This document shows positions 5,134 to 21,690 of a stretch of 64,000 nt of DNA, piece by piece. The notes beneath the pieces were generated by a model. The model did no database searches. It saw only the letters and a list, made by a program, of their open reading frames with translations, and was not told the DNA's origin. This DNA is from Simiduia agarivorans SA1 = DSM 21679 (lineage in GTDB: Bacteria; Pseudomonadota; Gammaproteobacteria; Pseudomonadales; Cellvibrionaceae), in the NCBI RefSeq assembly GCF_000305785.2, contig NC_018868.3, forward strand, positions 1,350,001 to 1,414,000, in the 5' to 3' direction. The translations under genes and the position numbers were made by a program. Position 1 is the stretch's first letter. Every line of letters starts with the position of its first letter.

Positions 5134-6240
5134 CTAGGTGTAAGGCGCAATGTGATTGTCATCTTGGGTCATGAGGTTAAGCAGCTTGGGGTGCACAAAG
5201 AGCTTTTCGCGCCCGGCTTGTAGCTCTGCCAGTACGCCAATGTCGCACAGACTTTTCAGGTAGCTGGAGGCGGTTTGGCGCTTAGCGATGTCTTTATCCA
5301 CCAAATTGCCAATGCGGCAATAGGGTTGCTCGAAAATAGTTTGCAACAGCTCATGGCTGTAGAGCTTGGGCAGGCTTGCCTGCACATAGTGGCTGGTGAG
5401 CTCCATGAGCGCGCGCACGGCGGCAATTTTGGCGGTGGTCCAGCGGGCGGTTTGTTCCACCGCTTTTAACATGTACAGCAACCAACGTTGCCAATCGCCC
5501 TCACGGGTGACGGCCTGCAGGCCTTGGTAGTAGCCGGGCTTGTTGCGCAGTATATAATGGCTTAAATACAGGATGGGCAAGTTGAGCAGGCCCGCCTGAA
5601 TCAGGTACAGAATATTCACAATGCGCCCAGTGCGGCCGTTGCCATCGGCAAAGGGGTGAATGGCCTCGAATTGGTAGTGGGCCACGGCCATTTTAATGAG
5701 CGGGTCAAGCTCGTCTTCGGCATTGAGAAATTGCTCCCAATTGGCCAGCAACTCGCGCAGGGTGGGTTCGCCCACGGGCGGCGTGTATATAGTTTCGCCG
5801 GTAGCCGGGTTACCCAGGGTGGTCCCGGCGCCGGTGCGCAGGCCCATGTGGGTACCTTTGATGGTGCTGCAAATCTCTATGGCGGTGTTGGTGCACAGGG
5901 GCCGCGTGGCCAATTGTTGAAAACCAGCAAAGAGCGCGGTGCGGTAGCGCAGGGCCTCTTTGGTGGTGTGATCGGCGGCGGCCTCTTCTTGGGCATATCG
6001 GAACAGCTGATCTGAAGTGGTGACGATATTCTCGATTTCCGAGCTGTCTTTGGCCTCCAACAGCGGCAAGAGGTTAATCAGCAGGTTCTGATTGGGCAGC
6101 AACTCACCGGCTTGCTTGAGTTCGGCCAAGGCGGCGCGGGCGGGTATACAGGCCTTGAGCACGGCGGTGGTTTCGAGCTGATCAAGCGGTGGCGCGAGCC
6201 GTGGGAGCGCGTTGTAGGGGGTATCGGCCTGCCAGGACAT
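5134..6240 (-). CDS. Fic-domain protein (probable AMP transferase)
   Basis: Fic enzymes transfer AMP, or sometimes other groups, to hydroxyls on target proteins. The 368-residue protein has an N-terminal Fic_N-like helical region, a GTxxGxPATG flap segment (about 140-147) and the catalytic motif HPFADGNGRTGR (195-206), with the His, the Asp-Gly-Asn-Gly anion hole and the Arg intact. SSEIEN (66-71) sits where class II Fic proteins carry their inhibitory (S/T)xxxE helix, so the enzyme is probably self-inhibited. A helical, winged-helix-like C-terminus follows. The upstream region carries repeated TCGACAT boxes that may be its own operator. It stands alone, flanked by REP-like elements. Confidence 0.9.
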   Translation of the reverse strand: MSWQADTPYNALPRLAPPLDQLETTAVLKACIPARAALAELKQAGELLPNQNLLINLLPLLEAKDSSEIENIVTTSDQLFRYAQEEAAADHTTKEALRYRTALFAGFQQLATRPLCTNTAIEICSTIKGTHMGLRTGAGTTLGNPATGETIYTPPVGEPTLRELLANWEQFLNAEDELDPLIKMAVAHYQFEAIHPFADGNGRTGRIVNILYLIQAGLLNLPILYLSHYILRNKPGYYQGLQAVTREGDWQRWLLYMLKAVEQTARWTTAKIAAVRALMELTSHYVQASLPKLYSHELLQTIFEQPYCRIGNLVDKDIAKRQTASSYLKSLCDIGVLAELQAGREKLFVHPKLLNLMTQDDNHIAPYT

Positions 6241-6508: not shown

Positions 6509-7105
6509 TCAATCCAAAAACCGCTCCCCCGCCTCATACGCCTCAAGCATCTCCATCGCTTTAGCGCGAACTTCCTGCGCAGTAACATCCCGACCACCAT
6601 CAGGCAAAGCCTGCAACCAATCCATCAATGGCCGACGAATTACCCCGGTTTGTTCAATGCAATATTCTGGTGACCGCACCCACACCTGAGGCCTGAAATT
6701 GGCTGGCGATGTATACCAAAAGCAGTAAGAGTAACCCTCTTCCTTGAGCCGGCTTTCAATCATATAACCCATAGGCAACCGAACCAGAATAGCCACAACG
6801 CCAATGCCAACAGCTAAATTGAACGTGTTCGTGTAAAGTCTACCCTTATCTTTACCAACTAATCTCAGAACCAGACAAAAGGCCAAAAGAATAAACACCG
6901 GGCTTGCAATGGCCATTGGCAATGCCCAACTGGAGGCATATACCGCTATCGCATATTGCTCAAACAGCTGAAAATTGTTTAGGAAATTACCTAAACCGAG
7001 CATTAATATAACGCCGGCAATAGCAACCATAATTATTGCAAGAAAGATAAACTTCGCTTTTTCGGAAGTGCTATGTGACGTTACAACCTGCATAGAGCCG
7101 CTCAT
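6509..7105 (-). CDS. membrane protein of unknown function, three TM segments
   Basis: About 198 residues. Three hydrophobic segments lie in the first 115 residues (around FIFLAIIMVAIAGVILML, a second near ALPMAIASPVFILLAFCLVL and a third near LAVGIGVVAILV). A charged soluble tail follows with two cysteines (YSYCFWYTS and PEYCIEQ). The layout recalls DUF1240-type membrane proteins, but I cannot confirm that. The start ATG (7105-7103) overlaps the TGA of the upstream small gene, so the two are probably translated together. Base composition is lower in GC than the flanking core genes. Confidence 0.6.
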   Translation of the reverse strand: MSGSMQVVTSHSTSEKAKFIFLAIIMVAIAGVILMLGLGNFLNNFQLFEQYAIAVYASSWALPMAIASPVFILLAFCLVLRLVGKDKGRLYTNTFNLAVGIGVVAILVRLPMGYMIESRLKEEGYSYCFWYTSPANFRPQVWVRSPEYCIEQTGVIRRPLMDWLQALPDGGRDVTAQEVRAKAMEMLEAYEAGERFLD

Positions 7106-8429: not shown

Positions 8430-8981
8430 CTACTTAATCCCTTTTACAGATGAAACAACACGCTCTAAAATAGGTTGAACCTCCAGCTCATCCTCTTCGG
8501 CAATCGCAACCACAAGAAAAATCGGCTCATCATCTAGCGAAACATCCACCGAAATAACCCGGGTATTCATGGCGCCCAAAAATTCCGCAGTCAACCTGTA
8601 TTCCAAAGCGGCTCGACCAACCACGTCATAGGCGGCTTTACTGACGACTTTGGCGGTATTACCAGGATCTTTTAAAAATGAACTTTCGATGTACGCATCG
8701 GTAAATTGCTTATGCCCGACACGATCGCTGTAGTAGAAAGTAGCGTATGAAAATTCGCCAAACTCAAAAACGATTTCTCGACCAACGTTTAATGAAAACG
8801 CCTGATCTCTTTGAAAACGCCAAGAGCTGGGATGCTCAATCGAAAAGCCATCATTGCTATACGTAACAAACCCATCATTGCTCGAGCAGTCAAGTGACAG
8901 GGCTATAGCGCAGAATGCGAAAAACAAATAGTAAAATCGATGAAGGGGGTTGCTAGAATCCATTCGCAAATCGGTCTCCAT
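8430..8981 (-). CDS. exported protein of unknown function, PsbP/DUF1795-like fold possible
   Basis: A hydrophobic segment (FYYLFFAFCAIALSL) ends at a cysteine (LDC) that resembles a lipobox, though Asp just before the Cys is unusual. The mature part starts with YSNDGFSIEHPSSWRF. That pattern of a short strand followed by a 'P..W' turn is shared by PsbP/Mog1-like and DUF1795 proteins, followed by alternating strands. 183 residues; a second possible start lies at 8963. It points away from its neighbours and has no obvious partner. Confidence 0.55.
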   Translation of the reverse strand: METDLRMDSSNPLHRFYYLFFAFCAIALSLDCSSNDGFVTYSNDGFSIEHPSSWRFQRDQAFSLNVGREIVFEFGEFSYATFYYSDRVGHKQFTDAYIESSFLKDPGNTAKVVSKAAYDVVGRAALEYRLTAEFLGAMNTRVISVDVSLDDEPIFLVVAIAEEDELEVQPILERVVSSVKGIK

Positions 8982-9252
8982 GGGGGTATAACCGAGTGGC
9001 CAATTCTATGCTATCGGCAATAATTAGCCTACAAACGAAAACCTAAGTAATACCATGGAACAGCTTTAAGTACGGGTGCTAAGGGGCCGGCGAAAAATGC
9101 TTCTCACTTGTCGCCGTCCCTTTTTATTGAGTCCTCGCCAAAAGCTATCAATCTTACCACTCAGAAATCCGGCCTATGCTCAACATCCCTGTTCTGCGGT
9201 AAAATCCGGGCCGCAAGTCAATCATTGCGCAACGTAAAAAGGATGTTTCTAC

Positions 9253-9864
9253 ATGCAGATTGAATACCAAGCAGTAGATGAGCTGGACTTCAGACTAGGG
9301 CTGATTGAATTACTCTCGGCCTACGGCAAAATCGATCAAAAAACAAACAGCCTGATAAATCGGGTGGTGGCCGAAACCAAGCTGCGAGCCATGCAAGACG
9401 CGCTCAAGCTATATGTAGAGGAAGGCCAGCGCATGACCCAATGCGAATTGATGCAAGAGAAGCATTCTTCGGGTCGGATTGGTGGCCATATGGAAACGTC
9501 CGGCTATGATAAACCTGCCGACCATTTCCACGCACATGCCATCGTTAGCGGTGGCCATAAACGCGCGTACGCCGCCCGCGAAATTCTCGCTCAATTCAAT
9601 ATCAGAATCGATGAACCTGCTAACGGACTTTGGCTACCAAATTACAAGAAAAATCTCCATCTAAGCCCGATATTTGATTGTGCACATGGTAATATACACA
9701 ACAAAATCTATTACCTGAATATTACGGCTTGTCTAGAACAAGCAATGAGTCAACAGCACGCGAGAGAAATCCTGCGGCGAGTGGCACAGGGGATAGTCAG
9801 TGGCCGGCTCCCCATTCACCGGCAATTAAGAGCTCGAGAGATCATGGAGTTTGCAAATGGCTGA
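9253..9864 (+). CDS. AHH-type HNH/EndoVII-superfamily nuclease, candidate toxin
   Basis: 203 residues. The C-terminal half follows the AHH nuclease pattern seen at the ends of polymorphic toxins: a histidine cluster (HFHAHAIV, H91/H93/H95, a variant of the usual AHHIVP), then AAREIL, then NGLWLP (124-129), then HGNIHNKIYY (145-154) with two more histidines. The N-terminal 80 residues are helical and contain no delivery domain (no PAAR, RHS, VENN or signal peptide). An in-frame TAA at 9235-9237 shows that the gene does not extend upstream. Two immunity-like genes follow, the first overlapping by 8 nt. It may be a detached toxin module, an effector carried by a separate delivery protein, or a domesticated nuclease. 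The substrate (DNA or RNA) is not known. Confidence 0.7.
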   Translation: MQIEYQAVDELDFRLGLIELLSAYGKIDQKTNSLINRVVAETKLRAMQDALKLYVEEGQRMTQCELMQEKHSSGRIGGHMETSGYDKPADHFHAHAIVSGGHKRAYAAREILAQFNIRIDEPANGLWLPNYKKNLHLSPIFDCAHGNIHNKIYYLNITACLEQAMSQQHAREILRRVAQGIVSGRLPIHRQLRAREIMEFANG

Positions 9865-10399
9865 AACTAAAAAAATCTACTCCATACAAGCCAATTACGA
9901 CGGCTATAAAAGCTTCGTACTCTCTAATGATGAAACCACGCTACGCTGCAAGGGCAAACCGCTGAATTGGTCAGAACCCCAACCGATAGAAACTGATGAA
10001 GAGGATGTTGGCGTACCAGAAGCCGATATCAGCCTGCTCAATATTGGTTCAATTGTCATCAACGAAAACATAAAGAAAGAATACTTCGACGTTTATCAAG
10101 ACTACTGCGAATTCCTGCCGCTAGACAATGATGGCAAACGGTATTTTGCTGTCAACGTTATCAATGTATTAGACTGTCTGGATATGAATAAAAGCAGGTT
10201 CAATAAACATGGCGGCATTATCGACCCTGTATTTGATCTCGCAAAAATCCCTGACAATGCGATTTTCAAAATAAAGGAAGACAATTACACCAACATCTAC
10301 TGCACTGAAGCTGTTGCTAGCAAGATATCCGATGCTCGATTGACTGGCGCCATGATTGAGGCTTTTGATACCAATGATCGGCCATATCAGAATCATTAA
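9857..10399 (+). CDS. Imm11/DUF1629-like immunity candidate 1
   Basis: 180 residues starting inside the end of the nuclease gene (8-nt overlap), the usual arrangement of a toxin and its immunity protein. Recognisable DUF1629 (Imm11) traits are the central YCEFLPL followed by a strand with VNVINVLDCLD, then IFKI, then a late YCTEAVASKI segment before the end. The protein is acidic and has no signal peptide, so it is cytoplasmic. Its likely job is to bind and block the AHH nuclease. The family call rests on motif order only. Confidence 0.65.
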   Translation: MAETKKIYSIQANYDGYKSFVLSNDETTLRCKGKPLNWSEPQPIETDEEDVGVPEADISLLNIGSIVINENIKKEYFDVYQDYCEFLPLDNDGKRYFAVNVINVLDCLDMNKSRFNKHGGIIDPVFDLAKIPDNAIFKIKEDNYTNIYCTEAVASKISDARLTGAMIEAFDTNDRPYQNH

Positions 10400-10484
10400 C
10401 ACTTAGCGCGAAGCCAAGTAATTCCGACTTAACGCATGAGCTTTTTAGTTTTATTTAATAAAGGCAACGCGTGTTAAAACCAAC

Positions 10485-11039
10485 ATGGCAATCTATAAAC
10501 TTCGCTACCGCTTCAAAAGCTACCTCTCTATCAATGTTTCCAATCAGGAAATGCGAGACAAACTGGGCAAACCGCTTTACCCGCGCGGAGAATCGGTAGC
10601 CGATATCTGGAAGCCACTGCAAGCCAGCCTCATCAATACCTTTGACGAAACCAGCCAAAGCAAAAAACCCGACATTGCCGATTGGGAAACCAATATGGTA
10701 CTAAGCCCCAATGCGTATGAGGCTCTATCCACAATGCTTTCGCCTTATGGGGAATTTTTACCGCTGAAGATTGAGGGCGAAACCTGGCACCTATACAACA
10801 CTACCAGCATCTATGATGACATTGACCTGAATGCCAGCTCGCAGCAACTCATGGATGGCATGGTCATGGCTGTTGTTGCGCTACAATTTGATGAAGAAAA
10901 ATTGGGGCCAGCGCCGGTGTTCAGATCCAACTTTGATGGGCGAATGGCAGTTTATTGTAAGGAAGCGTTTAAGCTAGCGGTTCAAGCGCAAGATTCTGAG
11001 GCATTGTTGTTTAGGGAAAATCTTACTTCACCGATGTAA
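10485..11039 (+). CDS. Imm11/DUF1629-like immunity candidate 2
   Basis: 184 residues, 85 nt after the first immunity candidate. It keeps the same order of segments: YGEFLPLKIEGETWHLYN in the middle, VFRS, and YCKEAFKLAV before a C-terminal LLFRENL. It therefore looks like a diverged copy of gene 9857-10399 rather than an unrelated protein. Two immunity paralogues after one toxin often mean that one protects against a relative's variant toxin. Confidence 0.6.
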   Translation: MAIYKLRYRFKSYLSINVSNQEMRDKLGKPLYPRGESVADIWKPLQASLINTFDETSQSKKPDIADWETNMVLSPNAYEALSTMLSPYGEFLPLKIEGETWHLYNTTSIYDDIDLNASSQQLMDGMVMAVVALQFDEEKLGPAPVFRSNFDGRMAVYCKEAFKLAVQAQDSEALLFRENLTSPM

Positions 11040-11291
11040 CTCTCTTGCGACCAGGCGGCGCGCCGACGATCCAGAATAGGGATTACTTCGGCCTTTCTTA
11101 GGTATTATCGAGCCTAGTTATCTACCTAGAATCCGGAATCCTTAATCAAAATACAAGTTGACTCATCTAAGCTACAACAATATTGAAATAAGTACACCGT
11201 CCCCGTAATCCCCGAAATCCGGAATCCACCAATTCCATCTACCATTCGGAGCAAAAATTAGGCGTTTTTCGAAAACACATAGCGCTAATTT

Positions 11292-11856
11292 CTACACCAA
11301 CCTTTCTGGAAATTTCAGATAATTTGATGTATTTAATGATAATCGCAATGAACTATAGCCGGAAATTATTCTGTGACCAACCCATCTAGAATCAACAATC
11401 TGCGCCTGATTAGGGAAATTACAAAGCAACAAACGCCCTTTGAAATTTACCCATTCTTTTGGCTTGAGCAAGAAAGCACCATATGCATGAATAGACCTCC
11501 CAGAGTCATAAAAACTTTAGGGTGGATGAGACCGAAGATGTTAGCATTTTTTCTGCGACTTTTTTAGCTTCCAACAGCTCGCTCGCCGAACAATCAAAAT
11601 CGATCATAGGAATATGGAACGTCTTTCCATCAATATATATCTTGGAATGCACAGCCAACTCTTCGTTGGGCGATAGCCTTGACAACATCTCCATTAGCCA
11701 GTCTTCCGAAATGCTATCCAAAGCAACAGAGAAGACGCTACGTTCATCTAACAGACTCTGAGGCCTGTACACATAGCGACTAAATTCAAGAACAACACCC
11801 CTTGAAGAAGGCAATACTTCCAACAAAAAAGATAGGGGATGCCTTAAGTAATTCAT
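11292..11856 (-). pseudogene. frameshifted AEP (primase-polymerase) superfamily small protein
   Basis: A first segment (11856 to 11506) codes 116 residues and stops within AAG TTT TTA TGA. One base further on, the +1 frame is open to TAG at 11292-11294 and reads FYDSGRSIHAYGAF...IVDSRWVGHRI...GYSSLRLSLN. If one T of the T5 run (about 11510-11514) is removed, a continuous 187-residue protein results. It then carries the three AEP motifs in order: hDhD (MIDFD, D86/D88), SxH (RSIH, S121/H123) and hD (IVD, D155). AEP proteins include primases and gap-filling polymerases. The start overlaps the dGTPase stop by 4 nt, so this is the last gene of the restriction operon. The shift may be a real mutation, an assembly error in the T run or, less likely, programmed. 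Confidence 0.7.
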
Positions 11857-13226
11857 ATTGTTTCTACACTTATTCCATGCAGCAATCGATAAACTTTCAG
11901 TGAAAAGTCATCTGTCATACCACAAACGTAATCAATCACCAAACGAACTCGATGATACCACTCATTTTGACCATCCATTTTAACCGCATACCGATATTGA
12001 TCGACCAAACTGTTTGGCAGCTTTGAAAACATTCGACGACATAAATCTGGCCCTTTAGATTGCTCGACAAGCCGAGAAAACTGACACTCAGAAAGCTCCA
12101 ATAGTACAGAAAATTTCTCGAGAAGCCCGTGAACTATATTATATCCAGCAATTTCAATATCTTCTGCCTCCGGTGAACGATACAAATTTTCCTTGCAGAA
12201 ATCTCCAATTATCTTTAAAACCTTTTCTTCATCACTACCTGCGAGCAGCGACTTTTTTACAACATTCTCTTCATCCAAGATTTTATAAAAGGCTCCAGCC
12301 GCACTACCAACAAGCGAGTTGATCATTGAAGTACGAAATGATACGAAGGGCGAGGTAACACCTCCCTTTAAAGCCGACTCTGCCATTTTTCTATATTCGG
12401 CTATATTTTCATCTGCAAATCGACTCTCAAATTGCTCCAAAACACTACGTTCATCAACAATTTTTTTCTCAATTCCATCTTCTATATCACTTAGACTATA
12501 AGCAATATCATCGGCAGCCTCCATAAGGTAAACAAGCTTATTTCGTTCACCCCATACTAACCCCTCCTCTCTCCAAACACTCTTAATCGCGTCAAGCTCA
12601 GTCTGAAAAACGCCAATCTTAGAATACTGCTGCATGCAATCTGAGGAGGATTTTGGGTATTTTAAAATGGCGCCCAACAAACTATAGGTTAGATTAAATC
12701 CGTAATTGCCAGGCAACCCCTGAAGACTAACACATATCCTTACACCTTGAGGGTTACCATCAAAATTTACGAAATCCAAATAGTGCCCTGAGGCTGCATC
12801 TAACTGACCTCCATTAGTTGCAATGGCATATAATTTCTTGGCATTAGATTTAAACCAATTTTGTATTGCCTTTTCGCCCAAATGCCCAAATGGAGGATTA
12901 CCGATGTCATGCAATAAACAAGCAGTCTCCACAATAGTCTCTATTTCGAGGCACTGTTCTGCGAACTCATTTCTCTGATCGACTAATGCTTTCTCTCGCA
13001 CTTTTTGAACAATATATCTGCCAACATGAGACACCTCCATAGAATGCGTAAGCCGACTTCGCACTGCAGCATTGCTTTCGAGAGAAAACACCTGAGCCTT
13101 TCTCTGCAGCCGTCTTAGCGGGGCAGAAAATAACACCCTTCCTCGGTCACTCTCGATTTCCTGGCGGCTAGAACGGCTTAGCAAGCTTGTAGAGGGCCGC
13201 AGACGCTTCACATTTACCAACTTCAT
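11853..13226 (-). CDS. dgt: deoxyguanosinetriphosphate triphosphohydrolase (dGTPase, HD superfamily)
   Basis: dGTPases split dGTP, and often other dNTPs, to the nucleoside and tripolyphosphate. The 457-residue protein has the HD metal site: H61 in SRLTHSMEV, H106-D107 in CLLHDIGNPPFGH, and a late Asp in LMEAADDIAYS. It matches the Dgt family in length and motif order. dGTPases of this family are known phage defence factors that drain the dNTP pool. Here the gene starts only 9 nt after hsdR on the same strand, so it is almost certainly co-transcribed with the type I restriction genes, and it overlaps the AEP-like gene by 4 nt. GC content is visibly lower than in hsdR and hsdM, which suggests a separate origin. 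Confidence 0.88.
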   Translation of the reverse strand: MKLVNVKRLRPSTSLLSRSSRQEIESDRGRVLFSAPLRRLQRKAQVFSLESNAAVRSRLTHSMEVSHVGRYIVQKVREKALVDQRNEFAEQCLEIETIVETACLLHDIGNPPFGHLGEKAIQNWFKSNAKKLYAIATNGGQLDAASGHYLDFVNFDGNPQGVRICVSLQGLPGNYGFNLTYSLLGAILKYPKSSSDCMQQYSKIGVFQTELDAIKSVWREEGLVWGERNKLVYLMEAADDIAYSLSDIEDGIEKKIVDERSVLEQFESRFADENIAEYRKMAESALKGGVTSPFVSFRTSMINSLVGSAAGAFYKILDEENVVKKSLLAGSDEEKVLKIIGDFCKENLYRSPEAEDIEIAGYNIVHGLLEKFSVLLELSECQFSRLVEQSKGPDLCRRMFSKLPNSLVDQYRYAVKMDGQNEWYHRVRLVIDYVCGMTDDFSLKVYRLLHGISVETI

Positions 13227-13235
13227 AACAACCCC

Positions 13236-16200
13236 TCAATAATGTCCTTTGATATATTCATATGCTTTATTAAAAAGCTCTTTGTCCTTACCCAAGCCAA
13301 ACTGTGCCAAAGTTACCAGTAGTGCCTTCTGGATTTCGCGCGGACCGCTATTGGAGTTTTGCCAGCCTTCAAAGCGGGTGGCTTTAACGATCTTGTCGAT
13401 CTGGTCTACAACATCACCGATTAGCTTCGGCGTGGTTTCTGGGCGAGTTTCCAGGAAGAGTTTGGTTAAGGCCTGCTTGTTGTCTTCTTCGGTAACGACA
13501 TGCTCGCCGGTTTCGCGCTCGGCTTGTACGGTATCTTTTGCTGCATCTAACAGGCCTTTTAACCAGTCGATAGCTTTGATGACACCGGCTTCGTAGTCTT
13601 GGCGTAATTTCTCAAGGCGTTCGCCAAGCTCGACAAACTTCGGATCGGTGTGACCACGCAGGCGGCCCATCAAGTCAATTTCGAGGCGCTTCGCGCGCTG
13701 CTCTTGTTCTTTATCCGTTAGAGTAAAAATGGCGTGCTCATCCATGATCAGCTCGTCGATATCATCGCGGATGCGATTGATGTCGGTATGCTCGTGGATC
13801 ATCTTGATAGTTTCAGGGCCGAGCGCGGCCCACACCAGAGCACCGGTCTGGCCTACCGGGCGTACCGACTCATAAATCTGCGCCAGCCATTTATAATCAT
13901 TTCTGAACGGACTTAAGAATGGATCTGGATTGATAGCTGACCATAGCTTGGATAGCACGCCGAAGCTCGCGGCAAACTCATCGCGCTTTTCATTGGTCGG
14001 CAAGCACTCTTGAGCTGCCATTATCCCTTCGAAGCCTTCTAGCGTGCGGTCCACACTGGGGAAGAAGTCCAGGCATTTTTTCAACTGGGCGGGCAACAAC
14101 TCTTTAAAGGCTTCAATGCCTTCCACCACGCCATCAATCTCTTCCGGGTTGTAGGCCAGCGCGGTGCGCAGGTTTTCAAACACGCCAAGGTAATCAATGA
14201 TGAGGCCCATGTCTTTGCGAACATCGTCCGTTTCGTACAAGCGGTTGGTGCGGCACATAGCCTGCAGCAAGGTATGGTCGCGCAGCGGCTTATCTAAGTA
14301 CATGCAGTAGCAGATCGGGGCGTCAAATCCGGTGAGTAACTTGGCGGTTACGATAATGAGTTGTAACGGGTGTTTTGGGTCTTTGAAGCACTCGATCAGG
14401 TCCTTTTGCACCTGATCTTCGGCATCAATATGCTGCCAGCGCTCAAAATCCGCTTGCTGAATCGGCAATTCCAACTCGTCATGCCACTTGCGCCAATCCT
14501 TGTTGACCTTATCTTTCTTGTCGCCTTCCAGCGCCTTCACGGGTGCCTGGTCCACGTTCATCACCACTTCAACGGCATCAAAGCCGAGCTTTTCACCCAG
14601 TAAGTAGTACATCTGCACGCAGGCATCGCGGTCGTACACCACCACCATGCCCTTCATTTTTTTCGGCTTGACGTGGCTGGTAAAGTGTTCGGCAATATCG
14701 GCGCTGACTGCAGCCATTCGCTTAGGCGCTTTGAGCATCACCGCTAATTTGCCCGCGCGTTTTGATAGTGCTGCCTTTTCCTCTTCGTCCAGGTTGTTTT
14801 CCTGGGCAAGCTGCTCAAACTCCTGGTTGATAGCATCACGGTCTACTCGCAGCTCCGCCAAACGTGGCTCGAACTTTACCGGGTTAGTGGCACCATCGCG
14901 GATTGACTGCTTGTAGCTGTAGCGATTCATGTAGCGACCGGGGTCTTCCTCGGCGCCGAATAGCTTGAAGGTATTGCGGTCGATACCGGAAATCGGTGTA
15001 CCGGTTAAACCATAGAAGTGAGCTTTGGGAAGGGCCCAGCGCATTTTCTCGCCCAAGCCACCTTCCTGTGTGCGGTGGGCTTCGTCCACCAACACAATAA
15101 TGTTGTCGCGGCTGTTAAGGCCATTAGGGTTTTTATCGTCTATCTCGACATCTTTAAACTTAAAGATGGTGGTAATCAAAATGCCACGGCTGTCTTGTTC
15201 TATATGTTCGCCAAGCTTTCTGCAGCTTTGTACTTTAATGAGGTTTTTAACATCCGCACCGCCAAAGGTCTCGTTGATTTGGCTGTCCAGGTCGCGGCGA
15301 TCTACAACTATCAATACGGTGGGGTTTTTCAGGTCATTGTCTGCACGCAGCATTTTGGCGGCGTAGAGCATTAATAACGATTTACCCGAGCCTTGGAAAT
15401 GCCAGATCAGGCCTTTTTTCGGGTAGCCTTTGCGCACACGCTCTACAATTTGCTTGGCCGCTTCAAACTGTGGGTAACGCGGCAGAATTTTAATGCGCTT
15501 GGGTGGCGTGTTCTTACCGGTTTTAACCGTTGAAAACAACGCGAAAGATTCCAGCAGCTGCAATAAGGTTTGCGGGTTTAACAAGCCCTCACAGCTATCC
15601 AAAACCGATGCCAAGCCGGGCAAAATGTCATCGCGCAGGTCGGTATTGTGCCAAGGGCCCCAATCTTTTACCCGGGCGTTAATGGCACCATATGCGAAAG
15701 TTTTTCCTTCACTAGCAAAACACAGCAGGTTTGACACAAAGTAGGGTTCAACGTTCTTCCAGTAGTGCTTTTTGCCACCCATGAAATCGGCGGCGCCGTC
15801 TTGCCAGGTCACACTGGGGCGGGTGGCGGTTTTCACTTCGCCCACCACCAAGGGAATACCGTTCACATAGAGCACAATATCAAAATAGACTTCAGTCGCC
15901 GCGATATAGTGCACCTGTTGAGACACCACAAAGTGGTTGTTGTCGATGTTGTCGAAATCAATCAGGTTAATGGTGATGTGGTCGCCATTCTCACCAAAGG
16001 GTAAGGTCTTTTCGGCCATCAACCATTCATGAAAATTTTCATTGGCTTTCACCAGGCCTGTATGACGCGCTTCCAGCACCACGCCACGCAGCTTGTAAAT
16101 CACTTCATCGGCATAATCCGGCTGCTTAGCAATATCGGGGTTTAACGAACACAACGCGTCTTTCAGCCATTCATCGACGAAGATATCCTGCGCTTGTTTG

Positions 16201-16298
16201 GGCAGGCTCTCACCGTGGCAGTACGTCCACTTCACCCCGCTTAAACCTTTCAAACGGTCGATAATTCCATTTTCTGTGACGGTTTGTTCGTTAAACAT
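13236..16298 (-). CDS. hsdR: type I restriction enzyme, R subunit
   Basis: Motor and nuclease subunit that translocates and cuts unmethylated DNA in complex with HsdM and HsdS. In 1020 residues the order is: a PD-(D/E)xK nuclease (D140, then E154-V-K156 in VVGEVK), a superfamily 2 helicase core with Walker A QGSGKS (302-307), DEAH (405-408) and GLTGTPI, a second RecA lobe with LLTGFDAP, and a helical C-terminus that docks on the methyltransferase. All key residues are present, so the enzyme looks active. It follows hsdS by one base and precedes the dGTPase. Confidence 0.96.
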   Translation of the reverse strand: MFNEQTVTENGIIDRLKGLSGVKWTYCHGESLPKQAQDIFVDEWLKDALCSLNPDIAKQPDYADEVIYKLRGVVLEARHTGLVKANENFHEWLMAEKTLPFGENGDHITINLIDFDNIDNNHFVVSQQVHYIAATEVYFDIVLYVNGIPLVVGEVKTATRPSVTWQDGAADFMGGKKHYWKNVEPYFVSNLLCFASEGKTFAYGAINARVKDWGPWHNTDLRDDILPGLASVLDSCEGLLNPQTLLQLLESFALFSTVKTGKNTPPKRIKILPRYPQFEAAKQIVERVRKGYPKKGLIWHFQGSGKSLLMLYAAKMLRADNDLKNPTVLIVVDRRDLDSQINETFGGADVKNLIKVQSCRKLGEHIEQDSRGILITTIFKFKDVEIDDKNPNGLNSRDNIIVLVDEAHRTQEGGLGEKMRWALPKAHFYGLTGTPISGIDRNTFKLFGAEEDPGRYMNRYSYKQSIRDGATNPVKFEPRLAELRVDRDAINQEFEQLAQENNLDEEEKAALSKRAGKLAVMLKAPKRMAAVSADIAEHFTSHVKPKKMKGMVVVYDRDACVQMYYLLGEKLGFDAVEVVMNVDQAPVKALEGDKKDKVNKDWRKWHDELELPIQQADFERWQHIDAEDQVQKDLIECFKDPKHPLQLIIVTAKLLTGFDAPICYCMYLDKPLRDHTLLQAMCRTNRLYETDDVRKDMGLIIDYLGVFENLRTALAYNPEEIDGVVEGIEAFKELLPAQLKKCLDFFPSVDRTLEGFEGIMAAQECLPTNEKRDEFAASFGVLSKLWSAINPDPFLSPFRNDYKWLAQIYESVRPVGQTGALVWAALGPETIKMIHEHTDINRIRDDIDELIMDEHAIFTLTDKEQEQRAKRLEIDLMGRLRGHTDPKFVELGERLEKLRQDYEAGVIKAIDWLKGLLDAAKDTVQAERETGEHVVTEEDNKQALTKLFLETRPETTPKLIGDVVDQIDKIVKATRFEGWQNSNSGPREIQKALLVTLAQFGLGKDKELFNKAYEYIKGHY

Positions 16299-16299
16299 A

Positions 16300-17460
16300 T
16301 TAAAAAACCAATTTGCTTAGTATTTTTCTTCTCAGCTCAAAAGGGATCTGTAGCTTTTGGTTTAAGACATCCAGCTGATAATCAATTTGACTTAACAACC
16401 GGAAAACTCGATCTTGCTCAAATTCCGATGGGATAAAAAATGAATACGCGCCCAAATCATCCCTATTAATTTTGGGGAACCCACTTCTCATAGATACCCC
16501 TTCAGCATATCTATGAAAGTGTTCTGTTTGCAGTAAGTAAAATAAATAGTCTGTCGCAAGGCCATTACAACCCTTAATTGGATATACATCAGCACTGCAA
16601 ACACCTTCAAATCTTGGGAAACAGACTTTTCTCAAATTTGGGCGAATTTTGCTGTATAGAACGTGTTCAGGGCCAAAAAGGTACTTCCCACTCGAGATAC
16701 AATCTTTTTCAGCACTCTGGAAACCCAATAGCCGCCCTGTGCCTTTCTCAATATTATCAGGGGCTATATGGCTCATCTCCTTATATGGAGATACGGTAGG
16801 ATCAACTTGACCACTCTGAATTTCCATATGGTTTTTTAGCTTTACAAGACGAGCGCCATCGGACTTAAGAGTCTCCGGGGCAAAGAGCTTAGCGATCAAT
16901 ACCCTTTTAAGTTCTTGAACAGAGGAAAAGACTTGTAACGCCTTTGAGTAAACTTCCTCATTTTTATCCAAGATGGACAGGTAATTTTTTTGTTTATGTA
17001 CATCCAAGCACTTAAATGTAAAACAGCCGATATCTTTCCAATTAATATAAGGATTGGTTGAACCTTTAGACACAGATATAGAATGCTGCGTAAATTTTTC
17101 CGAAAGCATTAAATACTTTAGAAGGCCAGGTTCAAAATTTTCGTTCTTCTTCGGTTCAATTACAAATGTAGTGTTTGCGGTAATTCCGTCAAAATTAGCC
17201 TCTGCGACCTTCCTTAAATAAGTACGTCTTGAACCATACAGAATTTGTCCCTTTCTAAATATGCGGTGAAATGCCGGCCCGACATAATCATTCCCAAAAA
17301 TACCCCATCTGGAGATGTTCAAACAGTCAGTGTCCATGTGCCCCCCTTCAACATACCTCTCGAAGGGATTGTCTTCTCGATCAACCGATTCTTTACACTG
17401 TTTAGCAACTTCACTAAACCTAAGCGTAACCGCATTGCCAGTATTTTTATCTGCTAACAT
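16300..17460 (-). CDS. hsdS: type I restriction-modification specificity subunit
   Basis: HsdS sets the two-part DNA target. 386 residues form the usual tandem layout: TRD1 (about 1-150), a helical spacer with VQELKRVLIAKLFAP (about 180-195), TRD2 (about 205-345) and a second helical region ending ELRRKILSKLVF. The two repeats are needed to hold two HsdM. GC content is lower than in hsdM and hsdR, as is common for exchangeable hsdS genes. A 64-nt gap separates it from hsdM2. The recognition sequence cannot be read from the protein. Confidence 0.92.
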   Translation of the reverse strand: MLADKNTGNAVTLRFSEVAKQCKESVDREDNPFERYVEGGHMDTDCLNISRWGIFGNDYVGPAFHRIFRKGQILYGSRRTYLRKVAEANFDGITANTTFVIEPKKNENFEPGLLKYLMLSEKFTQHSISVSKGSTNPYINWKDIGCFTFKCLDVHKQKNYLSILDKNEEVYSKALQVFSSVQELKRVLIAKLFAPETLKSDGARLVKLKNHMEIQSGQVDPTVSPYKEMSHIAPDNIEKGTGRLLGFQSAEKDCISSGKYLFGPEHVLYSKIRPNLRKVCFPRFEGVCSADVYPIKGCNGLATDYLFYLLQTEHFHRYAEGVSMRSGFPKINRDDLGAYSFFIPSEFEQDRVFRLLSQIDYQLDVLNQKLQIPFELRRKILSKLVF

Positions 17461-17524
17461 AGGCCCCTATTCCTTATCGGTTAATTTTAGATAATTCATA
17501 TCAGATAAGGCTGCACATAAATTT

Positions 17525-18952
17525 TTAAAATTCTTTCACTTGAACTCTATTCACATTCCAAGCCTCTATAACATGTTCAATATCATGCACTTCACCATTG
17601 TTTTGTGCCTGCACATAGAGCGGAATCGAAAGGTTGTAGAGATTCTCTTTGATGGTTTCGATATCTACCAAAGCGGTAATGTCGCTTTGCTTTTCTGGCG
17701 AAAAGAAAGCCTTGCACAACACGGCTAAATCCTCATCCGATAAGCGGCTGTGGGCGCGCTCGCGGGTAACGTGCTCCACACCGTTGATAAACAGCACTTT
17801 GTTTTTACGATCGGCGGGTTTATTGCAGTTGAGCACCACCACGCAGGATTCCATCGGCGAGTTGTAAAACAAGTTTGGCCCAAGGCCAATCACTGCCTCG
17901 ATAATGTCCGACTCAATCACTTGTTTACGGATGCTTTGCTCGGAATCACGGAACAACACGCCGTGTGGCCAGAGCATGGCGGCGCGGCCAGTATCCGGTT
18001 TTAAGCTTTTGATGATATGGGTGTAAAACGCATAGTCTGCGCAGCCTTGCGGCGGTACGCCGTAGAGGTTGCGGCCATAAGGGTCGGCGGCAAACTTATC
18101 GCGGTTCCATTTTTTGATGGAGTAAGGCGGGTTAGCGAAAATCACATCAAACTGCTTGAGCTGGTCGTGTTCAATAAACTTGGGTTCCGCCAAGGTATCG
18201 CCGCGCAGCACATCGAACTCTTCAATGTCGTGCAGGAACATATTCATTCGTGCAATCGCCGAAGTGAGCAGGTTCACTTCTTGCCCATAGAGATGCACTG
18301 ATCTCCATTCTTTGCCCTGAGAGCGTAAATCCATTACCGCATTTAGCAACATGCCACCGGTGCCGCAGGTGGGGTCATAAGCGGTTTCACCGGGCTTTAA
18401 GCCCATAATGCGCGTCATCAGATGCACGACTGTACGGTTGGTATAAAACTCAGCAGCAGTATGGCCGGAGTCGTCGGCAAATTTTTTGATTAGGTATTCG
18501 TAAGCCTCTCCCAGATCATCCTGAGCGACCGATTTAATCCCTAGCGGAATTTTACTGAAGTGCTCAATCAGATCAGATAGCAGGTGATCAGGTAAACGTT
18601 CTTTGTTGGTCCACTGGGCATCACCAAACACGCCATGTAAGCGCGGGTTGTTGGCTTCAATTAAACGCAGTGCGTTTTGAATGGCCTCACCAATGTTTTT
18701 GCTGGTGTGGCGCACCTTCTCCCAACGGGCTTCTTTTGGGATGTCAAAACGGTGAAACATGGGCATGGCTGCGTATTCGGCATCGCCTTCATGGATCTCC
18801 AATGCTTCGGTGTATTCTTCCAAATACACATCCGACAGGCGCTTATAAAACAGCAGCGGGAAGATGTACTGCTTGTAGTCTGAGGCGTCGATTTGGCCGC
18901 GCAAAAACTCGGCTGCACCCCAGAGGAGGTTTTCTAAGTCTGCTTTTTTCAT
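17525..18952 (-). CDS. hsdM: type I restriction-modification DNA methyltransferase subunit, second copy
   Basis: N6-adenine methyltransferase subunit, 475 residues. An N-terminal HsdM_N helical domain (IDASDYKQYIFPLLFYKR) is followed by the SAM-binding motif DPTCGTGGM (193-201) and the catalytic NPPY (274-277), so it looks active. It starts 4 nt before the end of a second HsdM gene and shares blocks with it throughout (SDYKxYIFPxLFxKR, NPxLHGxFGDAxWTNKxRL, EFYTxRT), so the two are clear but diverged paralogues. A normal type I locus has a single hsdM. Confidence 0.94.
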   Translation of the reverse strand: MKKADLENLLWGAAEFLRGQIDASDYKQYIFPLLFYKRLSDVYLEEYTEALEIHEGDAEYAAMPMFHRFDIPKEARWEKVRHTSKNIGEAIQNALRLIEANNPRLHGVFGDAQWTNKERLPDHLLSDLIEHFSKIPLGIKSVAQDDLGEAYEYLIKKFADDSGHTAAEFYTNRTVVHLMTRIMGLKPGETAYDPTCGTGGMLLNAVMDLRSQGKEWRSVHLYGQEVNLLTSAIARMNMFLHDIEEFDVLRGDTLAEPKFIEHDQLKQFDVIFANPPYSIKKWNRDKFAADPYGRNLYGVPPQGCADYAFYTHIIKSLKPDTGRAAMLWPHGVLFRDSEQSIRKQVIESDIIEAVIGLGPNLFYNSPMESCVVVLNCNKPADRKNKVLFINGVEHVTRERAHSRLSDEDLAVLCKAFFSPEKQSDITALVDIETIKENLYNLSIPLYVQAQNNGEVHDIEHVIEAWNVNRVQVKEF

Positions 18953-20448
18953 ATTTCAAAACCCTCTTTGATCAGCAGGGCTTCCAATTCGTTTTCGGCT
19001 TGTTCCAAAGCGGTGAGCTTTTGCTGAAAATCCCTTAATGCGTCTTCTACCGAGATAGTTTCTTCTTCCAGTGGCTTTTGCACATAGCGCGCAATGTTCA
19101 GGTTAAAGTCGTTTTCTTCGATTTCACTGATCGGCACCCAGCGAGCAACGCCTTCAATTTTGGCTGCTTTAGGGCCCTGTTTAACCTGGCTTTGGTAGAT
19201 GCCATAGATTTCATCTGCCTGATCATTGGTCAGGGTGTTTTGTGCGCGGCCTTTGGTGAAGATTTCTTCGGCGTTGATGATTAACACATGATCTTTATGG
19301 AGCTTCGGACGTGACTTTCGTAGCACGAGAATGCTGGCTGGAATGCCGGTACCATAAAAGAGGTTTGATGCTACACCGATAATGGCTTCGATGCGGTTTT
19401 CCTGCAGAAGCTTGGTACGGATTGCGCCTTCAGCACCACCACGGAACAGCACGCCATGAGGCAAGACCACAGCCATTCGGCCGCTATCGTTAAGCGACGC
19501 GAACATGTGTTGCACCCAGGCAAAATCGCCGTTGGTTTTGGGTGCCAAACCATACTGTTTGCGACCATAAGGATCTGCCGACCAGAGATCATAGCCCCAT
19601 TCTTTAAGGCTGAACGGCGGGTTGGCGATCACACAATCAAAGGTTTCAAGGCGATCACTGACCAGAAACTTAGGGTCACGCAGTGTGTCGCCACGCACAA
19701 TGTCAAAGTCTTCCTGCCCATGGAGAAACAGGTTCATGCGGGCAATGGCCTCGGTGGTTAGGTTCTTCTCCTGGCCTTTGATTTTTAGCAAGCGCGGATC
19801 ACCGCCGTTTTCTTTAACGTGGTGGATGGTTTCCAGTAGCATGCCGCCGGTACCGCATGCCGGGTCGTAAACGCTTTCACCCGCTTTAGGATCAAGAATG
19901 TTCACCATTAGGCGAACGATGGTGCGCGGGGTATAGAATTCCCCAGCCTTTTTGTTGGCCTTATCAGCAAAGCGTTTAATCAGGTATTCGTATGCGCGCC
20001 CCATGTCGTCGTCACGCACGCTGGCGACACCGAGGTTTACTTTGTTGAAATGATTGAGCAGTGTGCTCAATAGTTCATCTGACAAGCGATCTTTATTGGT
20101 CCAGCTGGCATCGCCAAATATGCCGTGTAGCTTTGGGTTTGCTAATTCGATGCCTCGGAACGCATCTTTTAACGCTTGACCGACATCTTTGGTGCGGTTG
20201 AATACATGACTCCAGTGGCAGTTTTCAGGAATCTGAATCCGGTGAAACATGTCGCCCTTGGCAAGCTCTTCATCACCCACCTGCGCCAAGGCCTGCTCAA
20301 ATTCCTCGTCATATACATCGCATATCCGTTTAAAAAACAGGATCGGGAAGATGTAGGTTTTATAGTCAGAGGCGTCTATGGGGCCTGTAATGATATGGGC
20401 GGCGTGCCATAGATGGGCTTCTAGGTCTTTTAGGTTTATTAATGTCAT
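18949..20448 (-). CDS. hsdM: type I restriction-modification DNA methyltransferase subunit, first copy
   Basis: 499 residues with DPACGTGGM (195-203) and NPPF (276-279), both intact, and the HsdM_N domain starting SDYKTYIFPILFFKR. It is the first gene of the operon; the order is hsdM1-hsdM2-hsdS-hsdR-dgt-AEP. The C-terminal helical tail (QQKLTALEQAENELEALLIK) resembles the region that contacts HsdS. Both HsdM may pair with the single HsdS as a heterodimer, or one may be a regulatory or alternative-specificity subunit. A 9-bp inverted repeat lies just upstream. Confidence 0.94.
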   Translation of the reverse strand: MTLINLKDLEAHLWHAAHIITGPIDASDYKTYIFPILFFKRICDVYDEEFEQALAQVGDEELAKGDMFHRIQIPENCHWSHVFNRTKDVGQALKDAFRGIELANPKLHGIFGDASWTNKDRLSDELLSTLLNHFNKVNLGVASVRDDDMGRAYEYLIKRFADKANKKAGEFYTPRTIVRLMVNILDPKAGESVYDPACGTGGMLLETIHHVKENGGDPRLLKIKGQEKNLTTEAIARMNLFLHGQEDFDIVRGDTLRDPKFLVSDRLETFDCVIANPPFSLKEWGYDLWSADPYGRKQYGLAPKTNGDFAWVQHMFASLNDSGRMAVVLPHGVLFRGGAEGAIRTKLLQENRIEAIIGVASNLFYGTGIPASILVLRKSRPKLHKDHVLIINAEEIFTKGRAQNTLTNDQADEIYGIYQSQVKQGPKAAKIEGVARWVPISEIEENDFNLNIARYVQKPLEEETISVEDALRDFQQKLTALEQAENELEALLIKEGFEI

Positions 20449-20472
20449 GCGTAATTTGTCTCTGATACCGAT

Positions 20473-20503
20473 TGGGCTTAGGCTTGATGCTTGTCTAAGC
20501 CCA
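20473..20503 (-). promoter_or_regulatory. inverted repeat upstream of the restriction operon
   Basis: TGGGCTTAG (20473-20481) and CTAAGCCCA (20495-20503) are exact inverted copies 13 nt apart, ending about 25 bp before the hsdM1 start. The position suits an operator. No controller (C) protein gene is visible nearby. Confidence 0.4.
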
Positions 20504-20595
20504 TGATTTTGCTGGCCAATCTTATCACTTGACTGGGGCGATCGGTGCTTTCTGCTTAACTCGTGACACTGGTCAAATAACGATCAGCTCACTAA

Positions 20596-21012
20596 TCAAT
20601 CCCAATACTTCGCCTTTTCCGCCACCACCCACCGCACACCCCCACGCGGATCAACCCCCTCCTCCGCATACCGCGGAATCACATGCACATGCAGGTGCAT
20701 GACCGTTTGGCCGGCGGCGGGGCCGTCGTTGATGCCGAGGTTGTAGCCGGCGGGTTGGTATTGGGCGTCTAATTCGGTTTTGGCTTCATCCACCAGCGCG
20801 AGCATGGCGTGGCGTTCTTCTTCGGTGGCATCGAAAAAGGACGCGATGTGGCGTTTGGGGATGATGAGGCTGTGGCCTTGGGTTACCGGGTAGCCGTCGT
20901 CCATTAAAAAGGCGTGTTTATTTTGTGCGCGGATGCGGGTGGGCGCTTCTGCTTGCAGGGTGCAGAAGGGGCAGGTGTTTGAAGCTGGTGTTGTGTTGTG
21001 GGTTGGGGTCAT
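20596..21012 (-). CDS. HIT family hydrolase
   Basis: The 138-residue protein carries the histidine triad MHLHVHVIPR, which hydrolyses or transfers nucleotides through a His-AMP intermediate. An N-terminal CPFC pair may bind zinc. The segment GYPVTQGHSLIIPKRH is typical of Hint/HIT proteins. I chose ATG 21012 because AAAGGAC precedes it and the 13 extra residues of the longer frame are not family-like. No operon partner is seen. Confidence 0.9.
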   Translation of the reverse strand: MTPTHNTTPASNTCPFCTLQAEAPTRIRAQNKHAFLMDDGYPVTQGHSLIIPKRHIASFFDATEEERHAMLALVDEAKTELDAQYQPAGYNLGINDGPAAGQTVMHLHVHVIPRYAEEGVDPRGGVRWVVAEKAKYWD

Positions 21013-21170
21013 GCGTTGTCCTTTAATACCTTCCTGCACTTCCGCGCCCAAGTTCCGTGGGCTTTGGAAAGTTACCTCATTTAATACATTTGTACCAGAT
21101 CAAAAAACCCATCTGCTGGTATCTGGCGCGCCATTCAACGGCGTTGCGTTGAAGGTTGTTCAGAATGTGT

Positions 21171-21335
21171 TCACTCAACTGGGCGTTGCGGTTTGCGGGC
21201 GGAATCGCGCCAGAGGTCTTTGGTGATATCCCATTGAACCGGGCCCGTTTTGAGGGGGCCGGCTTTACGTGATTTCACGAGGCTTTTTGCGGTAAGCGGT
21301 TGAAAGTTACGCGGCAAATTTGGGCGGTTTGGCAT
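21171..21335 (-). CDS. possible 54-residue basic protein, unknown
   Basis: An open frame from ATG 21335 to TGA 21171 codes a Pro-, Lys- and Arg-rich peptide (MPNRPNLPRNFQPLTAKSL, ending PQRPVE) with a Trp in QWDITKDLW. The amino acid mix is more protein-like than noise, and the surrounding 500 bp has no other coding frame. There is no clear ribosome site, so this is only a candidate. Confidence 0.3.
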   Translation of the reverse strand: MPNRPNLPRNFQPLTAKSLVKSRKAGPLKTGPVQWDITKDLWRDSARKPQRPVE

Positions 21336-21690
21336 GTTGCTGGTCCGGTATTGGGTTAGCGCTAGGACCGCAGTGCATTAGAGGGAGTTCAGGGATTATG
21401 GCAGGAGTGTGAAGGAATCTTGATGTAGCGCAGGGTTTGGGAAATTAGTGGAGTCTGACTTTGACACTTGGCGCCATCGGCTGGGTCAAAGCACCATCGA
21501 ATCAATAGTAACAAAGGGGCTGACCCGAGCTTGCACCCGCTGGGCACCCTGCCCGGTCCGTCACCCTATACAGCTTAGTCGTGCGGCTGTGCGGGGTGGA
21601 TCATGCTTTTGCCCGGAAACCAACAATGCCTTTGGGCATTTGCAGGCTGCTGAATAGTCCCGGCGGCGGATCAGATGATTGTTTGCATCT
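21336..21690. other. intergenic stretch without a recognised gene
   Basis: About 355 bp between the small candidate ORF and the operator pair of the HTH/NTase module. I see no gene, RNA or clear palindrome. Around 21537-21577 a C-rich run ending TCACCCTA resembles the end of the GTAG-headed elements but lacks a proper stem. Confidence 0.5.

Follow-up and report, generated by a model that had tools for sequence, protein, structure and literature searches.

A gene for a dGTP triphosphohydrolase (dgt) and a gene for a small protein of the archaeo-eukaryotic primase (AEP) family make up a conserved two-gene unit that is rare and patchy in its distribution. In the window, i.e., the whole 64,000-nt stretch of Simiduia agarivorans SA1 DNA analyzed here, this unit lies behind a type I restriction operon, and it is dgt plus AEP, not restriction plus primase, that recurs elsewhere. 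The two genes are co-inherited, the linked dGTPases keep their catalytic residues and appear, with moderate support, to form a group of their own, and a modeled relative of the AEP partner has an AEP fold with nucleotide-site residues that are near-invariant in the family. The explanation we favor, at about an even chance of being right, is a mobile, closely coupled two-gene module in which a dGTPase effector, Dgt, is followed by an AEP-fold regulator. Dgt would destroy dGTP and thereby serve in phage defense, and the AEP protein would set the dGTPase threshold through a nucleotide that it handles, in the manner of CloB and CloA in the Clover system (see below); that handling could be dNTP binding, or formation of a short 5′-triphosphorylated product of the primase kind.

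Locus Organization and the Disrupted AEP Gene

The window's source genome (4.30 Mb, one contig) carries a six-gene minus-strand run, hsdM1-hsdM2-hsdS-hsdR-dgt-AEP, reading from position 20448 to 11292, in which neighboring genes are separated or overlap by at most 9 nt, except for a 64-nt gap ahead of hsdS. Type I restriction-modification is represented by all of its components together: hsdM1 (18949..20448, −) and hsdM2 (17525..18952, −), whose products are 47% identical, the specificity gene hsdS (16300..17460, −), and the restriction gene hsdR (13236..16298, −; TIGR00348 476.6 bits, cut-off 284.55). The two HsdM proteins scored 233.1 and 220.6, under the TIGR00497 cut-off of 242.75, and both passed Pfam N6_Mtase and HsdM_N. 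Both paralogs (17525–20448, −) are full-length and overlapping, with one hsdS and one hsdR between them, which suggests a heteromeric M1-M2-S type I methyltransferase. Nine nucleotides downstream of hsdR begins dgt (11853..13226, −), encoding a 457-aa dGTP triphosphohydrolase with intact catalytic residues, and the ATG of the AEP gene at 11856 sits in the dgt stop codon. This overlap is 4 nt long; an overlap with a dGTPase gene inside a type I operon is as the initial annotation described it. AEP and dgt have G+C contents of 0.404 and 0.415, well below the 0.536 and 0.570 of the flanks, as for acquired DNA. There were no Rfam matches in window positions 9000–21500 and no repeats of at least 25 nt in 8500–21500. 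Convergent with the operon lies what looks like a polymorphic toxin-immunity cluster (9253–11039, +), composed of an AHH-family nuclease gene (PF14412) and then two ORFs with matches to the immunity domain Imm11, the second of them below cut-off; a Fic protein of the SoFic type is encoded at 5134–6240 (−).

As assembled, the AEP gene is broken into two frames. The first (11506..11856, −; 116 aa plus stop), with a motif I of HIPMIDF, matches PF24387 positions 4–63 at 41.9 bits (cut-off 27) and runs from 11856 to 11506, stopping just beyond a T run at 11510–11514. The second (11292..11516, −) stays open for 74 codons, from 11516 to 11295 with its stop at 11294–11292, carries the motifs SGRSIHAY, IVDSRWVGH and SLRLS, and matches PF24387 positions 62–133 at 86.7 bits (E 3.3e-24, same cut-off). 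Two abutting frames match complementary halves of one family, and in a column-by-column comparison they together keep 41 of the 41 columns with a conservation of 90% or more across 145 relatives. The observation of a frame-disrupted AEP-family gene, proposed from the letters alone, is therefore confirmed, both its frameshift and, with each half above the family cut-off, its membership. The continuation had been called strongly coding, which overstates the case: it is real by homology, but its openness alone is modest evidence, since 92 of 20,000 shuffles also stayed open, and although codon usage ranks its frame above the other five, the score falls just below zero (−0.089 per codon vs. 0.026 for the first half), so that homology decides its coding status. 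Relatives run to 184–223 aa among the 120 listed of 761 found, none of which stops at 116 residues. Nor is the gene wholly hidden from gene callers, as had been expected, because the protein database already lists the 116-aa half, with a precomputed PF24387 match.

A programmed frameshift as a feature of the family was considered and rejected, the AEP gene being a single frame in 24 dgt-linked loci, in a plasmid locus of Pantoea (L033) and, judged by length, in the 120 listed proteins; this leaves room for a programmed frameshift private to the Simiduia genome. The window locus could alternatively be a copy in decay, or one sequenced wrongly, whose only function is that of the dGTPase, a reading we rate somewhat short of even. 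It is favored by the position of the break, next to a run of T in an assembly of one contig, and by the in-frame TAA that interrupts dgt in the Pantoea locus, which shows that loss occurs. The full set of conserved columns retained by the two halves speaks against it and points to a change of recent date or an error in sequencing rather than to prolonged decay; in either case this reading has no bearing on the family. With the AEP gene disrupted and dgt intact in the assembly, any regulation would be lost in the locus as it stands.

Fold and Active Site of the AEP Family

PF24387 bears the name “Archaeo-eukaryotic primase 1D-like.” The fold result rests on an intact relative, P0002, whose identity to the first of the two AEP frames in the window is 46%: its structure model (pLDDT 94.6) has the AEP primase catalytic fold, so that the suggested structural check came out positive, on a relative. 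Among the best-ranked structure matches of the model are RepB′ in complex with initiator DNA and polymerase domains of LigD. No sequence match linked the PF24387 family to solved AEPs, and identity to the RepB′ primase, the LigD polymerase domain, PriS and PrimPol (PDB) is 6%.

Residues D85, H122 and R170 are present in 145 of 145 relatives and D154 and S120 in 144 of 145. The SxH and hD motifs pointed out at the start (S120, H122, D154) accordingly hold across the family, and all of them are kept in the window. The hDhD form of motif I does not: the place of the second acid is filled by D or E in only two of 145 relatives, both with E and both distant copies without dgt (L029, L030), and the acid is absent in the other 143. 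The D found there in the window, the last letter of MIDFD, occurs in none of the 145, and its likeness to the AEP signature is a chance feature of the window copy. In AEPs three acids bind the metals, and the second acid of motif I, which belongs to these, is needed for two-metal catalysis; RepB′, LigD, PriS and PrimPol have two motif-I acids, whereas the PF24387 family nearly always has one. The family thus nearly always lacks one acid of the metal-binding trio found in active AEPs, and two-metal polymerization cannot be assumed for it. The remaining site is nevertheless too well conserved to be that of a dead scaffold.

Linkage of dgt and AEP

In 21 of 27 named-genome loci of relatives (L004–L024, the closer ones), dgt lies directly upstream of the AEP gene on the same strand; in one of these (L014) it is cut by the contig end. 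The count becomes 20 of 26 when L004 and L022 are taken once. Their sequences agree at 6849 of 6857 bases, so that one and the same stretch has been assigned to two metagenome genomes from different phyla, which also makes the taxonomic label of L004 doubtful. In the other six loci (L025–L030) there was no dgt in the stretch examined. Genome searches with PF24387, blind to dgt, returned three new loci above cut-off, all three with the pair, and the only plasmid match, on pSOD02 of Pantoea sp. SOD02, has it as well (1/1). In that plasmid locus (L033, 10394–12567) the AEP frame is intact beside the interrupted dgt; the Pantoea pair had no DNA match in E. coli genomes.

Across 23 pairs with mechanically called ORF starts, the two genes overlap by 4 nt in 16, 11 nt in three, 8 nt in two and 1 nt in one, with a 1-nt gap in the last. 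Tree distances of Dgt and AEP are correlated (r 0.62 over 22 pairs, a value reached in 0 of 2000 permutations), which is what a unit moving together should show. No Dgt-AEP fusion was seen, in that PF24387 was absent among the best 120 of 7444 Dgt matches, and no PADLOC model matched P0002 or the 116-aa half.

Distribution and Genomic Setting

PF24387 exceeded its cut-off in one of 144 genomes of the source organism's family and one of 369 of its class, in both cases the window's own genome, with no match in the other 143 and 368. Further genome sets gave 1/56, 3/398 and 2/175, the last with two more weak matches below cut-off that contain internal stops (L070, L071). Among the matches listed, and judged by eye, five of 16 genomes have a phage-type integrase no farther than about 12 kb from the pair, with 0.9 expected (P 0.002); the figure is four of 15 (P 0.011) when two alike Acinetobacter islands are counted as one. 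N6_Mtase genes near pairs showed no such enrichment (two of 16 genomes, the window's among them; P 0.19 when it is left out).

A phage origin of the family was rejected for want of any match in 50,697 phage records. Two contigs in the viral_contigs set carry an AEP gene, neither with dgt in the stretch examined. One is a 163-kb phage-like contig (L032, 601–1953) where the lone AEP 1D-like gene stands shortly before an ORF resembling the restriction-alleviation protein Lar and could be a counter-defense; on the other (L031, 8001–8573), which by eye looks like a giant virus of eukaryotes, the gene lies among repeat-rich genes.

We surveyed the setting of 15 pair loci, with some neighbors annotated in each. 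Restriction-type genes adjoin five of them: type I genes in L010, type I with a split hsdR in L004, an Eco57I-type methylase in L021, a ResIII helicase adjoining an S8 peptidase in L006, and Vsr, a C5-methylase and HSDR_N on the opposite strand in L074. The count is six with L013, whose ResIII helicase is perhaps restriction-type. The other nine or ten have no restriction-type gene among the scanned neighbors. Two have an integrase near the pair (L016, L073), in three dgt-AEP lies 34–51 nt behind ribonucleotide reductase genes (TSCPD in L005, NrdB in L008 and L009), and in four (L011, L012, L023, L072) the neighbors are not telling. Since the neighbors vary in this way, a restriction operon is one among several settings in which the pair occurs. 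Of the restriction-dGTPase-primase module envisaged initially, the dGTPase half stands as the conserved neighbor and type I restriction does not. In L004 (1599–4682) an intact dgt-AEP closely follows hsdR, which is broken into two frames, one with HSDR_N and one with the helicase, and in L073 (3101–6850) genes for an IrrE-type peptidase, a 5-hmdU DNA kinase helical-domain protein and MazG occur near dgt-AEP together with integrases.

The main rival to nucleotide-based control is DNA-end or ssDNA sensing, in which the AEP protein would act on DNA (single strands, primer ends, or broken ends from restriction or phage replication) and switch the dGTPase on there. We regard this as unlikely, though a serious possibility. 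The DNA-bound RepB′ and the LigD polymerase domains among the best-ranked folds of the model speak for it, as do the restriction-type genes beside the window's pair and five or six of the 15 others, and E. coli Dgt, the sister of the linked group (see below), has been reported to bind ssDNA. Against it, the family proteins are small (the 184–223 aa of the 120 listed), the three that were scanned contain only PF24387, and nine or ten of the 15 surveyed loci have no restriction-type gene among the scanned neighbors.

The pairs behind ribonucleotide reductase genes would suit a housekeeping pair that balances dNTPs, with AEP tuning dGTP hydrolysis to reductase output, outside of any defense. We consider such a role distinctly improbable, given how patchy the pair is among the genomes of the same family and class, the excess of integrases near it, and the presence of another Dgt in eight of 12 searched host genomes, where the pair's enzyme is therefore an extra one; the window's genome has one Dgt match. 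The favored module of dGTPase effector and AEP-fold regulator still has to accommodate these three loci, as well as the AEP relatives without dgt (L025–L030 and the two viral contigs), both of which we count against it.

Phylogeny and Residues of the Linked dGTPases

The catalytic residues H69, H117, D118, H126, E129 and D242 (CloA numbering) are kept in 23 of 23 linked Dgts, window included. In a tree with E. coli Dgt as reference, these 23 and five context-unknown Dgts formed one group (support 91/90), sister to E. coli Dgt plus L035, the joint group having 100/100. With CloA added, 21 linked rows formed one group (82/91), and CloA was placed with L049, L041 and L042 (100/100), away from the linked Dgts on the other side (100/99). 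These two trees followed a first one without E. coli Dgt and a quick one with 18 context-unknown rows; in the latter the “linked” label needed eight changes because those 18 rows lie among the linked ones.

Comparison With Known Systems

E. coli Dgt (NCBIfam NF003429) has the same catalytic residues as the window's group, has no AEP gene among its annotated neighbors, and is without the loop at CloA 174–179; the window Dgt scores 394.5 against NF003429, below the cut-off of 405. The stand-alone anti-phage dGTPase NF041026 likewise shares the dGTPase family and catalytic residues, with a score for the window Dgt of 202.6 against a cut-off of 400. From the “primase 1D-like” proteins of PF24387, the window copy differs in being frame-disrupted. 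We found no description of a dGTPase-AEP pair in the literature searched, and an earlier one may exist.

The closest known system is the anti-phage system Clover, which consists of the dGTPase CloA and the Pol-β NTase CloB. As set out in the main text of PMC12265719, where “primase” and “AEP” occur zero times, CloA is inactive until phage raises dTTP, CloB makes p3diT (pppTpT), which holds CloA back, and operons with inactive CloB are toxic; the same source attributes the dNTPase-NTase pair to Nicastro et al. (2023). That toxicity (PMC12265719) and the overlapping two-gene order would also suit a toxin-antitoxin-like pair, with Dgt as the toxin and AEP as its required antitoxin. We hold this to be improbable, as the pair is found half-lost in both directions, with Dgt intact and AEP broken in the window and the reverse in Pantoea, and a strict antitoxin would not allow the state of the window if its break is genuine. 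A genuine break would mean that this strain can do without AEP as an antitoxin; from a sequencing error no conclusion could be drawn. The same locus counts against the favored regulator, since an intact Dgt beside a broken AEP should be harmful if AEP only restrained Dgt.

Like Clover, dgt-AEP consists of two genes, for a dGTPase and an adjacent protein of a nucleotide-polymerizing fold, and the HD and HE catalytic residues of Clover are kept in the linked Dgts. The partner is Pol-β in Clover and an AEP fold here, the neighbors of the window dgt being HsdR and AEP, with no CloB. The linked Dgts are not orthologous to CloA but lie on a separate branch. Among the CloA contacts to p3diT, R34 is replaced by S and D37 by G, A or S in 23 of 23 linked Dgts, while R38 is kept in 23, N181 in 22 and R29 in the window only; of those to dTTP, D61 and K256 are replaced in all 23 and Y452 in 20, and R47 and T449 are kept in all 23. 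On the grounds of the separate branch and the mostly changed p3diT contacts, dgt-AEP is not Clover. E. coli Dgt matches the linked Dgts at the R34/D37-type places, and 12 of 12 other lone Dgts keep R29 and D37, so that these places neither mark nor exclude a nucleotide signal. Separately, the CloA-like dGTPase gene of L049 (573–2844) is overlapped by an NTP_transf_2 gene (21.6 bits, cut-off 21; mechanical ORF starts) and is for this reason likely a Clover locus.

By analogy with CloB, the AEP protein may regulate the dGTPase through a nucleotide, a proposition that we see as evenly poised; that it synthesizes a signal nucleotide is a more tentative idea, well short of even. Primases start by joining two nucleotides into a 5′-triphosphate dinucleotide. 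This product is the same class of molecule as p3diT, which suggests a parallel circuit for a primase-fold protein coupled to a dGTPase. For Clover, PMC12265719 explains how an anti-phage dNTPase spares its own cell. A second, separate group of dGTPases, coupled to a nucleotide-site partner of its own, would add an independent example on which the generality of nucleotide control over dNTP depletion could be tested, and PF24387 gains a genomic context that is strong and a role that can be tested. With chances that we would call balanced, dgt-AEP is a design parallel to Clover with a primase-fold regulator. It is possible, though on balance doubtful, that primase-fold proteins were recruited independently of Clover's Pol-β enzyme to make a short 5′-triphosphorylated deoxynucleotide that gates an anti-phage dGTPase; if so, two unrelated polymerase folds would have converged on one control circuit, here on a motif I with one acid.
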